Part shown: positions 31,806 to 39,192 of the stretch, in pieces | Layout: every line of letters starts with the position of its first letter | Position numbering within the stretch: the stretch's first letter is position 1 | From: Leyella lascolaii | Lineage (GTDB): Bacteria; Bacteroidota; Bacteroidia; Bacteroidales; Bacteroidaceae | Assembly: GCF_900079775.1 (NCBI RefSeq) | Contig: NZ_LT556036.1 | Location: forward strand, 497,234-561,233 | Direction: 5' to 3' | Length of the DNA: 64,000 bases | The notes under the pieces: model-generated | What the model was told of the DNA's origin: nothing | What the model saw: only the letters and a program-made list of their open reading frames with translations | The model's database searches: none | Translations under genes and position numbers: made by a program

Positions 31806-32192
31806 ATGACAAAGGTTAAAGAAGTTTACCGTTGTGCTATTTGTGGTAACATAGTAGAGATTATGCATATGGCAGGAGGCACACTGACATGTTGCGGGCA
31901 ACCCATGGAGCTTCTTACAGAGAACACCGTTGACGCTGCAAAAGAAAAGCATGTACCGGTAGTTGAGGCTATTGAGGGTGGTTATAAAGTTAAAGTCGGA
32001 AGCGTTGAACATCCTATGCAGGACAACCACTATATAGAATGGATTGAACTTGTAGAGGAAAATAAAATACAGCGAGTTCATTTAAAACCTGGAGACAAAC
32101 CGGAAGCTGTTTTCTACACAGATTGCAAGAATGTTTACGCACGCGAATATTGTAATTTACACGGTCATTGGAGCTCAAAAAAAACTGAATAA
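31806..32192 (+). CDS. dfx: Desulfoferrodoxin (superoxide reductase)
   Basis: Superoxide reductase reduces superoxide to peroxide without making oxygen, protecting anaerobes. The 128-residue protein is the two-iron class (2Fe-SOR). The rubredoxin-like centre I ligands are C10, C13, C29 and C30 (YRCAICGN, LTCCGQPM). Centre II ligands are H49, H69, H75, C116 and H119. The catalytic Glu 47 and Lys 48 of EKH are both present. It stands alone between two repeat-bearing gaps and ends in a strong hairpin terminator at 32229. Confidence 0.96.
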   Translation: MTKVKEVYRCAICGNIVEIMHMAGGTLTCCGQPMELLTENTVDAAKEKHVPVVEAIEGGYKVKVGSVEHPMQDNHYIEWIELVEENKIQRVHLKPGDKPEAVFYTDCKNVYAREYCNLHGHWSSKKTE

Positions 32193-32741: not shown

Positions 32742-34904
32742 TTATTCGTTTTCGGCATCAAGTTCTTTCTCATGTTCTGCGATAAGAGTCTGCTGCATCT
32801 CATTCGGAACAAGTTCATAACTTGCAAACTTCGTGTTGAACGAAGCGCGTCCTCCTGTTATACTACTTAATGATATCGAATAACTGCTAAGTTCTTTCAA
32901 TGGGATTTTTGCTTGCAATTTCTGATATCCGGCTTCGCTGTCCATACCCATAATAAGTGCACGACGGCTTTGCAGATCGCTCATTACATCGCCCATATAG
33001 TCTGATGGGACATATACCTCCAGATCATATATTGGTTCCAAAATTTTCGGACCGGCTTCCTTAAACGCAAGAGAAAACGCATTACGTGCCGCAAGCATGA
33101 ACGATAGTTCATTTGAATCAACAGGGTGCATTTTACCATCATAAACAATGACTCTCACGTCACGTGCGTAGCTTCCGGTCAGTGGTCCGTGTTCCATTCT
33201 TTCCATTATACCTTTAAGTATTGCCGGCATGAAGCGTGCGTCTATTGCACCGCCAACTACCGAATTAATGAAAACAAGCTTTCCGCCCCATTCCAGATCT
33301 ATCTCTTCGCGACCTTTTATGTTGACTTTAAGCTCCTGACCGTTTATTTTATATGATACAGGATCCGGCATGCCTTCGGCATAAGGTTCTACAATAAGAT
33401 GTACCTCACCGAACTGTCCGGCTCCTCCCGATTGTTTTTTATGTCTGTAATCAGCGCGTGCCGTTTTTGTAATGGTCTCTCTATAAGGAATCTTAGGCTC
33501 TTCGAACTTAACCTGTAGTTTTTCATTGTTTTCCAATCGCCACTTCAATGTACGCAGATGGAATTCTCCCTGACCGTGTACTATTGTCTGTCTCAGTTCC
33601 TTACTCTGTTCTATCACCCATGTCGGATCCTCCTGTCTCATCCTCAACATTGCAGCCATCAGTTTTTCAGTATCGGCAGAATTGACCGCTCTTATTGCGC
33701 GTGAATATTTGGAATTCGGATAACTGATAAAATCAAATTTCCACTCACAGTCTTTCCCGTTAAGAGTATTACCGGTTTTTACATCCTTCAGTTTCACCGT
33801 GCATCCTATATCTCCTGCATTAAGTTGTTCCACAGGTATTCGGTTCGCACCTGCACATGCGTATATTTGTCCTATCCTTTCTTTCGAGCCACGGTCTGAG
33901 TTGGTTAGGTCATCACCGGTTTTGACACAACCACTCATAACTTTAAAATAACTTACTTCACCGATGTGCGGTTCAACGCCTGTCTTAAAGAAATATATTG
34001 ATTCCGGTCCGTTAGAATCCGGCGTTATCTCTTCACCGCGGGTGTTGTGCAGTTTTGGCATTTCACTGACAAATGGAACAACATTTCCAAGAAATTCCAT
34101 CAGACGTCTTACTCCCATATCTTTGCCGGCACATACACAGAAAACCGGGAATATGGAACGTGTTACGAGTCCCTTGCGTATACCTTCCCTCATTTCATCC
34201 TCTGTCAGTGTCTCTTCCTCGAAAAATTTCTCCATAAGACTCTCATCATTCTCAGCAGCCGCCTCGACAAGAATTTTATGCAGTTCCATTGCCTTTTCTT
34301 TTTCTTCCTCTGGAATTTCCTCTATAATCGGCATACCTCCGTCAGGACTCCAAGAATATTTCTTCATCAGCAATACATCTATCAACGCGTTGAATCCGCT
34401 TCCGGTACTGATCGGATATTGAATCTGTACGCATTTAGATCCGTATATGCTCTTCATATTCGATATTACGTTATCGAAATCGCATTTATCTGAGTCAAGC
34501 TGATTAATAAGAAATATAACAGGTTTCTTAAGTTTTTCAGTATATCTGAAGTTGTTTTGTGTTCCGACTTCGGGACCATATTGTCCGTTTATAAGAATCA
34601 CTGCTTGGTCTGTAACATTCAGTGCTGTAATCGCACCTCCGATAAAATCATCTGATCCCGGACAGTCTATTATATTAAGTTTCTTATTATTCCACTCTAC
34701 ATGAAAAACGGTCGGGAAAACCGAGTATCCGTATTCCTGTTCAACCGGGAAATAATCACTTACTGTATTTTTTGCTTCTATTGTACCACGGCGTTTGATT
34801 ATTCCGCTTCCATAAAGCATCGACTCGGCAAGTGTAGTCTTGCCTGAACCCGCACTGCCAAGCAATGCAATGTTCTTAATTTCGTTGGTTTGATATATTC
34901 TCAT
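32742..34904 (-). CDS. fusA2: EF-G paralogue, EF-G2 type, with altered GTPase site
   Basis: The 720-residue protein has the full EF-G domain plan: G domain, domain II, domain IV with GGAGQFGEVHLIVEP, and domain V. The GTPase motifs are unusual. The P-loop is GSAGSGKT (residues 16-23), switch II reads DCPGSDDF (80-87) where EF-G has DTPGHVDF, so the catalytic His is Ser 84, and NQLD (134-137) replaces NKxD. In Bacteroides thetaiotaomicron a paralogue called EF-G2 lacks GTPase activity, is induced by carbon starvation and is needed for gut colonisation; this gene looks like its orthologue. The start is ATG 34904, divergent from hemW. I see no clear -7 box for it. Confidence 0.88.
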   Translation of the reverse strand: MRIYQTNEIKNIALLGSAGSGKTTLAESMLYGSGIIKRRGTIEAKNTVSDYFPVEQEYGYSVFPTVFHVEWNNKKLNIIDCPGSDDFIGGAITALNVTDQAVILINGQYGPEVGTQNNFRYTEKLKKPVIFLINQLDSDKCDFDNVISNMKSIYGSKCVQIQYPISTGSGFNALIDVLLMKKYSWSPDGGMPIIEEIPEEEKEKAMELHKILVEAAAENDESLMEKFFEEETLTEDEMREGIRKGLVTRSIFPVFCVCAGKDMGVRRLMEFLGNVVPFVSEMPKLHNTRGEEITPDSNGPESIYFFKTGVEPHIGEVSYFKVMSGCVKTGDDLTNSDRGSKERIGQIYACAGANRIPVEQLNAGDIGCTVKLKDVKTGNTLNGKDCEWKFDFISYPNSKYSRAIRAVNSADTEKLMAAMLRMRQEDPTWVIEQSKELRQTIVHGQGEFHLRTLKWRLENNEKLQVKFEEPKIPYRETITKTARADYRHKKQSGGAGQFGEVHLIVEPYAEGMPDPVSYKINGQELKVNIKGREEIDLEWGGKLVFINSVVGGAIDARFMPAILKGIMERMEHGPLTGSYARDVRVIVYDGKMHPVDSNELSFMLAARNAFSLAFKEAGPKILEPIYDLEVYVPSDYMGDVMSDLQSRRALIMGMDSEAGYQKLQAKIPLKELSSYSISLSSITGGRASFNTKFASYELVPNEMQQTLIAEHEKELDAENE

Positions 34905-35042
34905 ATCAAAAGATTTAATGAGTTAATATTTTTGTCTAAGGTAATAAGAGATAAAAACTCTTACGGCCGACTAAGTTAAATAAATTTATGTCAATTGCAA
35001 AAGAAAATATTGAAAAACTGTCAGCGTTTTAAAACATATTAG

Positions 35043-35051: not shown

Positions 35052-35119
35052 ATTGAATTTTGTGGTTAATCAAACATTTTCAATACGTATTTAATATAAT
35101 ATATTGTCGTTAATTCAAT

Positions 35120-36259
35120 ATGGCGGGTCTATATGTACATATCCCCTTTTGCGCTACACGATGTTCTTATTGCGGTTTCTACAGTACGACAAAACTCGAT
35201 TTGCAGGATAGATATGTGGATAGTCTGTGCCGTGAGATTGCACTAAGGAAGGAATATTTATCATCCTACTCTACCGATAGCAAAGCTGCCAATACAATCA
35301 TCCGCACTATATATATAGGTGGTGGAACTCCATCACAATTATCCCGTTATAGCCTTGAAAAATTATTCCATGCAATAGATACATATCTGGAATGTTCACC
35401 GGAAGAGGTCACGATGGAAGTAAATCCGGATGATGTCACAAATGATCTTGCTGAGACCATATCTGCATTGCATATAAATAGGGTCAGTATGGGGGCGCAG
35501 ACATTTGATGACAATCGGCTGAAATTTCTAAATCGTAGACACAAATCATTTCAGGTGGAACGGGCTATTGACATTTTGCATGAACATGGTGTAGGAAACA
35601 TCAGCATTGATCTAATGTTTGGATTCCCCGGTCAGACATGTGACTCATGGAAAGAGGATGTAAGACGCGCGATAAGTCTTGACATACAACATATCTCGGC
35701 ATACAGTCTGATGTACGAGGAAGGAACCAGACTGTATCGTATGCTGAAAGAAAACATGATAAAAGAGATAGATGAAGAGGTCAGTCTAAATATGTACAAT
35801 GAACTGATAAATATATTGTGTTATGCCGGATATGAACATTATGAGATAAGTAATTTTGCAAAAAAGGGATATAGGGCACTGCACAACAGTTCATATTGGC
35901 ATGACATTCCTTATCTGGGAATAGGAGCCGCAGCACATTCTTACAACATAAAATCGAGACAATGGAATGTATCTGACATTAATAAATATATTGAATCAAT
36001 ATCACACGACACTGTACCTTTTACATTTGAACCTATTGACGCCGACACACATTATAACGACATTGTAACAACAGAATTACGCACGTCGGAAGGTATAGAT
36101 TTGTCGCAGCTTGATGACAAGTATATGCAGTATATCGTAAAACAAGCCGCAAGACATGTTGCTGATAAAACGGTTGTCATAAATGACGGGCATTTGAAAC
36201 TTACACACGAAGGACTATATATCAGTGATATGATAATGAGTGATTTAATGAAAGTATGA
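35120..36259 (+). CDS. hemW: HemW-like radical SAM protein
   Basis: HemW, formerly taken for an oxygen-independent coproporphyrinogen oxidase, binds heme and is thought to deliver it to respiratory enzymes. The 379-residue protein has the radical SAM cluster motif C-x3-C-x2-C at C11, C15 and C18 (FCATRCSYC). The following Phe of GFYS in place of a fourth Cys is typical of HemW rather than HemN. IYIGGGTPSQLS, then TMEVNPDD and RVSMGAQTF, and FPGQT are conserved blocks. The C-terminal HemN domain is present. It is followed at 6 bp by a small membrane protein. Confidence 0.94.
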   Translation: MAGLYVHIPFCATRCSYCGFYSTTKLDLQDRYVDSLCREIALRKEYLSSYSTDSKAANTIIRTIYIGGGTPSQLSRYSLEKLFHAIDTYLECSPEEVTMEVNPDDVTNDLAETISALHINRVSMGAQTFDDNRLKFLNRRHKSFQVERAIDILHEHGVGNISIDLMFGFPGQTCDSWKEDVRRAISLDIQHISAYSLMYEEGTRLYRMLKENMIKEIDEEVSLNMYNELINILCYAGYEHYEISNFAKKGYRALHNSSYWHDIPYLGIGAAAHSYNIKSRQWNVSDINKYIESISHDTVPFTFEPIDADTHYNDIVTTELRTSEGIDLSQLDDKYMQYIVKQAARHVADKTVVINDGHLKLTHEGLYISDMIMSDLMKV

Positions 36260-36787: not shown

Positions 36788-37411
36788 ATGGAAATCAAAA
36801 GTTCTGAGTTTGTTATCTCTGCACCTAACGTAAACCAATGTCCGAATGACATAAAAGCAGAGTATGCCTTTATCGGAAGATCGAATGTTGGGAAATCAAG
36901 TCTGATAAATATGTTGTGCAACCACAAAGGTCTTGCAAAGACCTCTTCCACACCGGGAAAAACACTATTGATAAATCATTTCATAATAAATAAAGAATGG
37001 TATCTGGTAGACCTGCCTGGATATGGATTTGCAAAACGGTCGAAAACAGTACAGAAGAAACTTCAGAACATGATATCGTCATACATACTTCAACGTGAAC
37101 AGCTGGTCAATACCTTCGTCCTTGTTGATATACGACATTCCCCCATGGCAATTGATGTGGACTTCATAAACTGGCTCGGACAAAGCAATGTGCCGTTTGC
37201 CATAGTATTCACAAAAGCCGACAAACTGACTCCATCCAAGGCGAGGCAGAATGCTGAGGCATGGATGGAAAAACTTAAAGAAAGCTGGGAAGAGCTACCA
37301 CCCTATTTCGTCACCAGTTCTGAAAAAAGAACTGGACGCGACGAGATTCTCAATTATATTGAGAGTATAAATAAGTCATTGAAAGGTGACAGCTCTGAAA
37401 TAATAATCTGA
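36788..37411 (+). CDS. yihA: Ribosome biogenesis GTPase EngB (YihA/YsxC)
   Basis: This essential GTPase acts in late assembly of the large ribosomal subunit. The 207-residue protein has G1 GRSNVGKS (residues 30-37), G2 around SSTPGKT, G3 DLPGYGFA, G4 TKADK and G5 TSS. These motifs and the length define EngB. The ABC-F gene starts 8 bp after its stop, so the two form an operon linked to translation. Confidence 0.96.
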
Positions 37412-37419
37412 AAAACAAA

Positions 37420-39192
37420 ATGATTCCATATATTGACGTACAAAATCTTTCCAAATCGTTTGGCGCACATGTCCTTTTCGAGAATATTTCATTTTCAATT
37501 TCTGAGGGACAACATGTCGGACTGATTGCAAAAAACGGTATAGGCAAAACCACGTTGTTGTCAATACTCACAGGCAAGGAAGGCTATGATTCTGGAGACA
37601 TCATATTCAAGCGGGATCTGAAAATTGGCATACTTGAGCAGAATCCTGTGTTCAATCCGGAAGAATCGGTACTTGACGCATGCTTCAACCATAACGGGGA
37701 GTCTGAAAAAGTTCTTCGTGCAAAGCAGATACTCACACAGCTGAAAATAAAAGACCTCAATCAGCCTATGGGCGAGCTTAGCGGCGGACAGCAAAAACGT
37801 ATTGCATTGGCAAATGTGCTGATTACCGAGCCGGATTTGCTGATACTTGACGAGCCGACTAACCATCTTGACCTTGAGATGATTGTCTGGCTCGAAGGCT
37901 ACCTCTCCCGGGGCAACAAGACATTACTGATGGTGACACACGACCGATATTTCCTTGACCGTGTATGTAATATCATTCTTGAATTGGACAATAAAACAAT
38001 TTATACATATAGAGGCAACTATGAATATTATATAGAAAAAAGACAGGAACGCGTCAACGCCACCATGGCGGAAATAGCAAGAGCCAATAATCTCTATCGT
38101 CGCGAACTTGAATGGATGCGTCGTATGCCACAGGCAAGAGGTCATAAAGCTCGATACAGAGAGGATGCGTTCTATGAGCTTGAGGCAAGAGCGAAGCAAC
38201 GGATTGAAGAACGGCAGATGCGCCTTAAATCAAAAAACGTATATATCGGTTCAAAAATATTCGAATGCCAATATGTTTCTAAGGCATGGTCGGAAGAAAA
38301 GGTTATCTTGAAAGACTTCTACTATAACTTCAGCCGTTTTGAAAAAATGGGAATCATCGGAAACAATGGCAGCGGTAAGTCCACTTTTATAAAGCTTCTT
38401 TTAGGAATAATACAACCGGACAGTGGAAAATTTGACATCGGTGATACCGTAAGATTCGGATATTTTTCACAGGAGGGATTAAAGTTCAATGAGGAGCAGA
38501 GAGTCATTGACGTAATATCTGAAATTGCCGATTTCATCGATTATGGAGGTGGTAAGCATATAACCGCGTCACAATTGCTGCAACACTTTCTTTTCACACC
38601 GGAGCAACAGTATGACTATGTGTATAAATTGAGTGGCGGAGAGCGTCGCAAACTCTATTTATGTACGATACTCATGCGCAACCCTAATTTTCTTGTACTC
38701 GATGAGCCGACAAACGATTTGGACATTCCCACTCTGCAGGTCTTGGAAGAATATTTGCAGGATTTCCCCGGATGTGTCATCATAGTCAGTCATGACCGGT
38801 ATTTTATGGATAAGATAGTAGATCACCTCTTGGTCTTTCAAGGGAACGGAGTGATACAGGATTTCCCCGGCAATTACACACAATACAGGGAATGGAGTGC
38901 CTTGAAGCCCAAAGAACTAAAAGAGAAAAACCAGCCTTTGGAGAAAAAGAGTAGAAAAGTCCAGGATGTTTCTGTACGGAAAAAAATGACATTTAAGGAG
39001 AAACGTGAGTTTGAGCAGCTTGAGAAAGACATTGCCGCACTTGAGAAAGAGCAGAAAATCATAGAAGAAGAACTGTGTAGCGGGAAACTGACAATTGACG
39101 AACTTACGGAAAAGAGCAAGCGTCTCCCGGTATTGAAAGACGAACTTGACGAAAAAAGTATGAGATGGCTCGAACTTTCTGAACTTGCCTGA
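37420..39192 (+). CDS. ABC-F family ATPase (Uup type)
   Basis: ABC-F proteins have two ATP-binding cassettes and no membrane domain; most act on the ribosome. In this 590-residue protein the first cassette shows AKNGIGKTTLL, LSGGQQKR and LLILDEPTNHLD; the second shows GNNGSGKST, LSGGERRK and LVLDEPTNDLD. A charged linker of about 80 residues joins them. The C-terminal 80 residues form a Lys/Glu-rich coiled coil, typical of Uup, which has been tied to ribosome rescue and DNA branch-point metabolism. It is the last gene of the engB operon and ends in a perfect hairpin. Confidence 0.92.
   Translation: MIPYIDVQNLSKSFGAHVLFENISFSISEGQHVGLIAKNGIGKTTLLSILTGKEGYDSGDIIFKRDLKIGILEQNPVFNPEESVLDACFNHNGESEKVLRAKQILTQLKIKDLNQPMGELSGGQQKRIALANVLITEPDLLILDEPTNHLDLEMIVWLEGYLSRGNKTLLMVTHDRYFLDRVCNIILELDNKTIYTYRGNYEYYIEKRQERVNATMAEIARANNLYRRELEWMRRMPQARGHKARYREDAFYELEARAKQRIEERQMRLKSKNVYIGSKIFECQYVSKAWSEEKVILKDFYYNFSRFEKMGIIGNNGSGKSTFIKLLLGIIQPDSGKFDIGDTVRFGYFSQEGLKFNEEQRVIDVISEIADFIDYGGGKHITASQLLQHFLFTPEQQYDYVYKLSGGERRKLYLCTILMRNPNFLVLDEPTNDLDIPTLQVLEEYLQDFPGCVIIVSHDRYFMDKIVDHLLVFQGNGVIQDFPGNYTQYREWSALKPKELKEKNQPLEKKSRKVQDVSVRKKMTFKEKREFEQLEKDIAALEKEQKIIEEELCSGKLTIDELTEKSKRLPVLKDELDEKSMRWLELSELA

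Follow-up and report, generated by a model that had tools for sequence, protein, structure and literature searches.

A probable ortholog of Bacteroides thetaiotaomicron EF-G2 with serine at the position of the EF-G catalytic histidine

The 64,000-nucleotide stretch of Leyella lascolaii DNA analyzed here (the window) carries fusA2, a gene for an EF-G2-type protein, on its minus strand (Table 1). The reading frame opens with an ATG at 34904 and closes with a stop codon ending at 32742; the same frame on the plus strand contains many stops and is not open. A divergent hemW gene shares a 215-bp intergenic region with fusA2. Among named relatives, which are the best 80 of at least 589, 78 have at least 900 bp of upstream sequence, and hemW is divergent from fusA2 in 73 of these, the hemW search giving no match upstream of the other five. 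Convergent with fusA2 lies a desulfoferrodoxin gene (31806–32192, plus strand; TIGR00320, 188.2 bits, cut-off 146.9). The segment adjoining hemW (36788–39192) encodes two proteins whose family names point to the ribosome: the ribosome-biogenesis GTPase YsxC, with 226.9 bits against TIGR03598 (cut-off 124.45), and an ABC-F protein, with 418.1 bits against NF000355 (cut-off 380).

Table 1. Features of the fusA2 locus, in window positions.
Feature	Position	Strand	Basis or remark
fusA2 / EF-G2 coding sequence, 720 aa	32742..34904	(-)	ORF, NF058620 score, 79% identity to 8dmf
Domain IV insertion, 26 residues, 515–540	33285..33362	(-)	Alignment to own EF-G; AlphaFold2
G4 motif N134-QLD (EF-G: NKxD)	34494..34505	(-)	Translation, motif tally
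Switch II DCPGSDDF, residues 80–87	34644..34667	(-)	Ser84 codon TCA at 34653–34655
Switch I G2 motif Y58-GYS-61, where EF-G has RGIT	34722..34733	(-)	Motif tally
P-loop GSAGSGKT, residues 16–23; Gly19 at the EF-G monovalent-cation Asp	34836..34859	(-)	Translation, motif tally
Candidate Cur (BT4338)-type site TATGTTTTAAAACGCT	35023..35038	(-)	119–134 nt upstream of ATG
Divergent neighbor hemW	35120..36259	(+)	TIGR00539, 276.8 bits, cut-off 205.4

The best curated model for the window protein is NCBIfam EFG2_Bacteroid (NF058620), which it matches at 1339.9 bits with a cut-off of 1000. Against the canonical EF-G model TIGR00484 (EFG I) it reaches 487.1 bits, below the cut-off of 659.4. The genome encodes a separate canonical EF-G on another contig (L001, 704 aa), which scores 1025.3 bits against TIGR00484 and carries the motifs AHIDAGK, RGIT, DTPGHVDF, and NKMD. 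The two proteins have the same domain order because they are homologous along their whole length (query residues 10–716, 31% identity). However, the canonical protein has the His, RGIT, the P-loop Asp, and NKMD and has no insertion, and the window protein differs from it at every one of these points. A duplicate of canonical EF-G is ruled out by model score, motifs, and tree.

A PDB sequence search returned as its top match a chain common to 7uvp and 8dmf, aligned gap-free over residues 1–713; 8dmf is titled "Cryo-EM structure of the ribosome-bound Bacteroides thetaiotaomicron EF-G2." The AlphaFold2 model of the window protein has a mean pLDDT of 87.3, with values of 56 to 69 over residues 41–60 (switch I). 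With this model, Foldseek placed 8dmf first at 79% identity, and VIA-align placed it fourth by Z (50.6, the first being 51.7) with 718 of 718 residues aligned. No gaps separate B. thetaiotaomicron EF-G2 from the window protein over residues 1–718, and the two have in common Ser84 within DCPGSDDF, YGYS, NQLD, and an insertion of the same length; they differ in the P-loop, where B. thetaiotaomicron EF-G2 has Ala18 and the window protein Ser, and in other scattered changes. A preliminary description of the locus had proposed a counterpart of B. thetaiotaomicron EF-G2, and the gap-free 79% identity, the NF058620 match, and the separate canonical EF-G bear this proposal out. Neither of two contrary outcomes named there, a genome lacking its own canonical EF-G gene or a nearer kinship with tetracycline-protection proteins, was observed. 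Orthology to B. thetaiotaomicron EF-G2 (fusA2, BT2167) within the EFG II subfamily, in a host that is a Prevotella-like member of the Bacteroidaceae, is thus supported at the level of sequence.

Placement in EFG II can be read from the G domain and beyond. The RGITI consensus is absent from the window protein, which reads YGYSV, and absence of RGITI is given as an EFG II characteristic in the portion of PMC3150367 available, where the subfamily includes Thermus EF-G-2 (1wdt). All six type I EFG II markers are present (G16, L25, S61, T308, G352, and K371, corresponding to Gly16, Leu25, Ser61, Thr291, Gly333, and Lys352 in 1WDT numbering). Seven type II markers are tabulated and six could be mapped; five of the six agree, the exception being position 513(543), which has Leu where Glu is expected.

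EF-G2 is widespread among relatives of the host. Genomes with an NF058620 match over the cut-off number 150 of 151 in the family, 134 of 148 in the order, and 15 of 296 in the phylum. The phylum search also returned many more full-length matches at 727 to 996 bits, and relatives therefore reach well past the order. The named loci (the best 80 of at least 589) come from oral as well as gut Prevotellaceae, so the gene is not confined to gut dwellers. In 14 of the 148 order genomes no EF-G2 match reaches the cut-off; three (G495, G522, and G531) hold partial copies at contig ends, and the remaining 11 have matches of canonical-EF-G strength only, which suggests EF-G2 losses or assembly gaps.

For comparison of individual residues we assembled 236 EF-G2 sequences: 151 from the family (150 distinct), 49 from the order outside the family, and 36 from other parts of the phylum. 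The 150 family genomes over the cut-off include the window's own, and 70 others were read; the order sequences were read from the 134 order genomes over the cut-off, and the phylum set is a selection of 36 of the phylum matches. The named loci and the other genomes may repeat species. Motif and insertion tallies omit L002, L003, L005, L006, and L007, each of which is either a different factor or a fragment of the window gene, while no match came from L004 or L008; the motif tally further omits L011, a copy of the window gene, giving 151 family rows, compared with 152 in the insertion tally.

Translation confirms the switch II reading of the preliminary description, which named no strand, with Ser84 in place of the EF-G catalytic His, and likewise the deviating P-loop and G4 motifs, where the canonical EF-G of the same genome has AHIDAGK and NKMD. 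The description's reference to a universal DxPGHxDF, in contrast, does not fit the relatives read from EF-G2 and EFG II. Not one of the 236 EF-G2 sequences has His at residue 84; the position holds S, A, Y, F, L, M, T, P, or G. Within the family it is Ser in 126 sequences and Ala in 25. The counts are S 22, A 11, L 5, F 4, M 3, P 2, G 1, and T 1 in the order set and Y 20, F 6, L 5, T 4, and P 1 in the phylum set. His is also missing from the seven EFG II relatives in the phylum that have no insert (Y 6, L 1), and Thermus EF-G-2 (1wdt) probably has Tyr at this place in switch II. The four canonical EF-Gs fetched alongside, like the host's own EF-G, have His at this position. L243 to L246 were considered as EFG II paralogues and dismissed, their motifs being those of canonical EF-G. 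With 126 Ser, 25 Ala, and no His among 151 family sequences, Ser84 is no isolated error, and the gene, as judged from these comparisons, is an ordinary member of the described Bacteroides-type EF-G2 family in which Ser84 is normal.

The history of residue 84 was followed on a tree of 60 rows from which the trait columns were excluded. We chose to root this tree on canonical EF-G, and a "loss" of His is therefore read from that root. The tree requires one change between His and non-His, 15 changes in the identity of residue 84, two between small and large residues there, and one at Y58; a quick tree with the switch I columns kept likewise gave 15 changes at residue 84 and one at Y58. Besides the window, whose codon is given in Table 1, Ser84 is encoded in the family by TCN codons in 73 sequences and by AGY codons in 52 (n = 125). 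The use of both Ser codon groups suggests that a small residue at 84 has been kept within the family. A Ser-specific catalytic adaptation is weakened as an explanation by the 25 of 151 family members that have Ala, and simple drift is weakened within the family by the restriction to Ser and Ala and by the origin of Ser from both codon groups. In the order set, a small residue at 84 accompanies Y58 in 26 of 27 sequences, compared with 8 of 22 sequences without Y58; as Y58 changes only once on the tree, this coupling is no independent test.

Other parts of the G domain are altered as well. In most translational GTPases the P-loop Asp is a ligand of a monovalent cation. In its place the family has Gly in 149 of 151 sequences and Arg in two, the order set G 41, K 6, and R 2, and the phylum set G 29, K 4, D 2, and S 1, so that Asp occurs in two phylum members. 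A P-loop Gly has already been reported for EFGII (PMC4342817). Switch I reads YGYS in all 151 family sequences, compared with RGIT in the host's own EF-G.

The preliminary description held the tRNA-mimic domains to be intact. Strong Pfam matches to EFG_IV (108.2 bits) and EFG_C (93.5 bits) uphold this in general, but the insertion in domain IV had been missed. It is the only insertion or deletion longer than six residues relative to the host's own EF-G. AlphaFold2 models it as short β-strands (517–520, 523–526, and 531–536), and mean pLDDT in ten-residue blocks over 511–540 is 82–88. Measured from one conserved anchor to another, the segment that holds it has 48 residues in all 152 family rows. 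Of the 49 order sequences, 44 also have 48 residues, four have 39, and one has 64; all 36 phylum sequences have 39, a version with a 17-residue insertion. The segment measures 19 residues in all seven insert-free EFG II relatives, which lack the insertion of the window protein, and 20 to 32 residues in five canonical EF-Gs. Because the reference segment varies among canonical EF-Gs, the size of the insertion depends on the reference, and relative to the 19-residue segment of Thermus EF-G, aligned by eye, it would measure 29. On the tree, the class of insert (none, 17 residues, or at least 26) undergoes three changes, one of them confined to L232. The 64-residue segment belongs to this sequence (genome G534, contig C12), whose near relatives have 39 residues, 25 fewer.

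Han et al. in 2023 reportedly described a 26-residue region, unique to EF-G2, on which ribosome binding depends and to which the lack of GTPase activity is attributed. We presume, from the equal length, that this region and the insertion at residues 515–540 are the same. Among the papers listed by literature searches for Bacteroides EF-G2 or fusA2 and for Prevotella, none described the 26-residue region or dealt with EF-G2 in Prevotella. Elsewhere in the protein, most of the domain IV loop motif (H488, K489, K490, Q491, G493, G494, G496, Q497, and F498) and H593 are invariant among 19 diverse members.

Excerpts of PMC6989115 report a 238-fold increase in fusA2 expression when B. thetaiotaomicron is limited for carbon, and a site bound by BT4338 (Cur) upstream of the gene. 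(PMC13392398 applies the name fusA2 to the EF-G of C. difficile, a different usage.) The candidate site in the window, TATGTTTTAAAACGCT, has three mismatches to the published Cur consensus, all in the last three bases. The intergenic region contains a second three-mismatch match, at 35088–35103, and a scan of the upstream region scored another place, 199 nt upstream, equal to TATGTTTTAAAACGCT. Across the window 13 three-mismatch matches were found, compared with a mean of 9.5 in shuffles, and TATGTTTTAAAACGCT alone therefore proves nothing. Among 145 genes, each with at least 200 bp of upstream sequence, a Cur-like site with at most three mismatches occurs in the 300 bp upstream of 44 of 109 family genes, compared with about 7 in shuffles; the other 65 have no such site. 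The corresponding counts are 5 of 9 for other genes of the order (0.7 expected) and 1 of 27 for phylum genes (1.5 expected). Given this enrichment in the family and order and the weak copy in the window, the association with Cur seems to be ancient within the order and to have decayed in some lineages, perhaps including the window's own. A promoter pattern derived from the window's own site recurs in 21 of 79 named genes (from the best 80 of at least 589), a count that is partly circular, and the argument therefore relies on the published Cur consensus. As to the regulator, there are two CRP-like proteins; with a threshold of E ≤ 0.001, one is matched in 39 and the other in 35 of 41 family genomes, in most cases with low identity; a search for the Cur ortholog found no fitting NCBIfam name, and these two proteins were indistinguishable in it.

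The available text of PMC10294740 and PMC12775393 cites EF-G2, after Han et al., as working without GTP hydrolysis, and the latter cites the B. thetaiotaomicron protein as a catalyst of translocation. By analogy with this ortholog, the window protein would lack GTPase activity, be induced on starvation, and have a role in colonization. We assign a probability of roughly 80% to a joint explanation in which the window gene encodes an EF-G2 ortholog within EFG II that performs GTP-independent translocation, with insertion-linked silencing of the GTPase and Cur-type control. In this mechanism, a Cur-type regulator would switch fusA2 on, and the protein would bind ribosomes and, when carbon is short, drive slow translocation without GTP hydrolysis, both as reported for B. 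thetaiotaomicron. Silencing of the GTPase would depend on the insertion in combination with the changed G domain rather than on Ser84 by itself.

The preliminary description implied a simpler cause, namely that losing the His meant losing the GTPase. As a sufficient or diagnostic explanation this is unsupported: among the Bacteroidota sequences read, the His is absent from every EF-G2 and from all seven insert-free EFG II relatives, and the tree has a single change between His and non-His. In passages of PMC4532990, E. coli EF-G H91A hydrolyzes GTP on the ribosome at 28/s compared with 202/s for wild type, and phosphate release falls from 28/s to 0.32/s; complete loss of GTPase activity in H91A is also cited there from other reports. 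An H92A variant is described in the accessible part of a 2025 single-molecule study (PMC12775393) as highly deficient in hydrolysis and phosphate release and nevertheless capable of multi-turnover translocation. Within EFG II, excerpts of PMC3150367 report that Thermus EF-G-2 binds and hydrolyzes GTP and that M. smegmatis EF-G-2 is without ribosome-dependent GTPase activity. Given the activity of H91A and the mixed GTPase behavior within EFG II, the His position is not diagnostic and Ser84 is no safe sign of a lost GTPase; loss of the His may well contribute to its absence.

Could the window protein instead be an EFG II factor that, like Thermus EF-G-2, still hydrolyzes GTP slowly on the ribosome and so is not energy-saving? 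The disagreement between Thermus and M. smegmatis EF-G-2 and the 28/s retained by H91A are in keeping with such a factor, and Ser61 preserves a hydroxyl at the place of the switch I Thr. We consider it unlikely, however, as the nearest characterized relative, 79% identical, is cited in those portions of PMC10294740 and PMC12775393 as lacking GTPase activity and has the catalytic motifs and the insertion in common with the window protein. Considerably less probable is a storage or recycling factor that occupies ribosomes without translocation, the G-domain changes marking a lost elongation role. The 15 changes at residue 84 do indicate a weakly constrained G domain, but the invariance of most of the domain IV loop motif and of H593 speaks against this reading, as does the translocation activity cited for the B. 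thetaiotaomicron ortholog in the excerpt of PMC12775393. A tetracycline ribosomal-protection protein, the identity implied by the molecule name "Tetracycline resistance protein TetQ" on the 79% identical PDB chain (7uvp), deserves almost no credence: the G domain and other EF-G-like domains of Tet(Q) and Tet(M) are homologous to those of the window protein, but every tetracycline-protection model listed scores far under its cut-off (tet_protect, NF012153, 253.9 bits against 775; Tet(Q), 122.1 bits against 1425) while EFG2_Bacteroid passes, and 8dmf, an entry with an identical chain sequence, bears B. thetaiotaomicron EF-G2 in its title. Because of that title, the name TetQ on the 7uvp/8dmf sequence is misleading, and it may misdirect the annotation of orthologs such as the window gene. 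As a separate observation, contig C5 of the host genome holds at about 458302–460867 a Tet-type protection-like locus (L005/L007), in which matches to the EF-G profile repeat the start of the G domain and are spread over more than one open frame; the locus includes a masked stretch.

If the window protein is a GTP-independent EF-G2, its features may have been acquired in order, and we offer the following sequence of events tentatively. Loss of the His could have come first without being decisive, GTP-independence in Bacteroidota could have arisen through a domain IV insertion gained in two steps (17, then 26 residues), and later, in one Bacteroidales clade, Y58 could have appeared in switch I and selection could have kept residue 84 small (Ser or Ala), which the encoding of Ser by both TCN and AGY codons fits better than drift.

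Overall, the gene is a further copy of a described factor and therefore adds little alone. Its comparison with relatives carries two cautions, that a missing His is insufficient to call an EF-G GTPase-dead and that the PDB name TetQ is likewise unsafe. The comparison also separates loss of the His, common to every EF-G2 and every insert-free EFG II protein read from the phylum, from the more narrowly distributed insertion and switch I change. If the tentative sequence of events given above is true, an energy-saving factor would exist well beyond gut Bacteroides, with intermediates alive in other classes. Living intermediates could reveal which change silences the GTPase.
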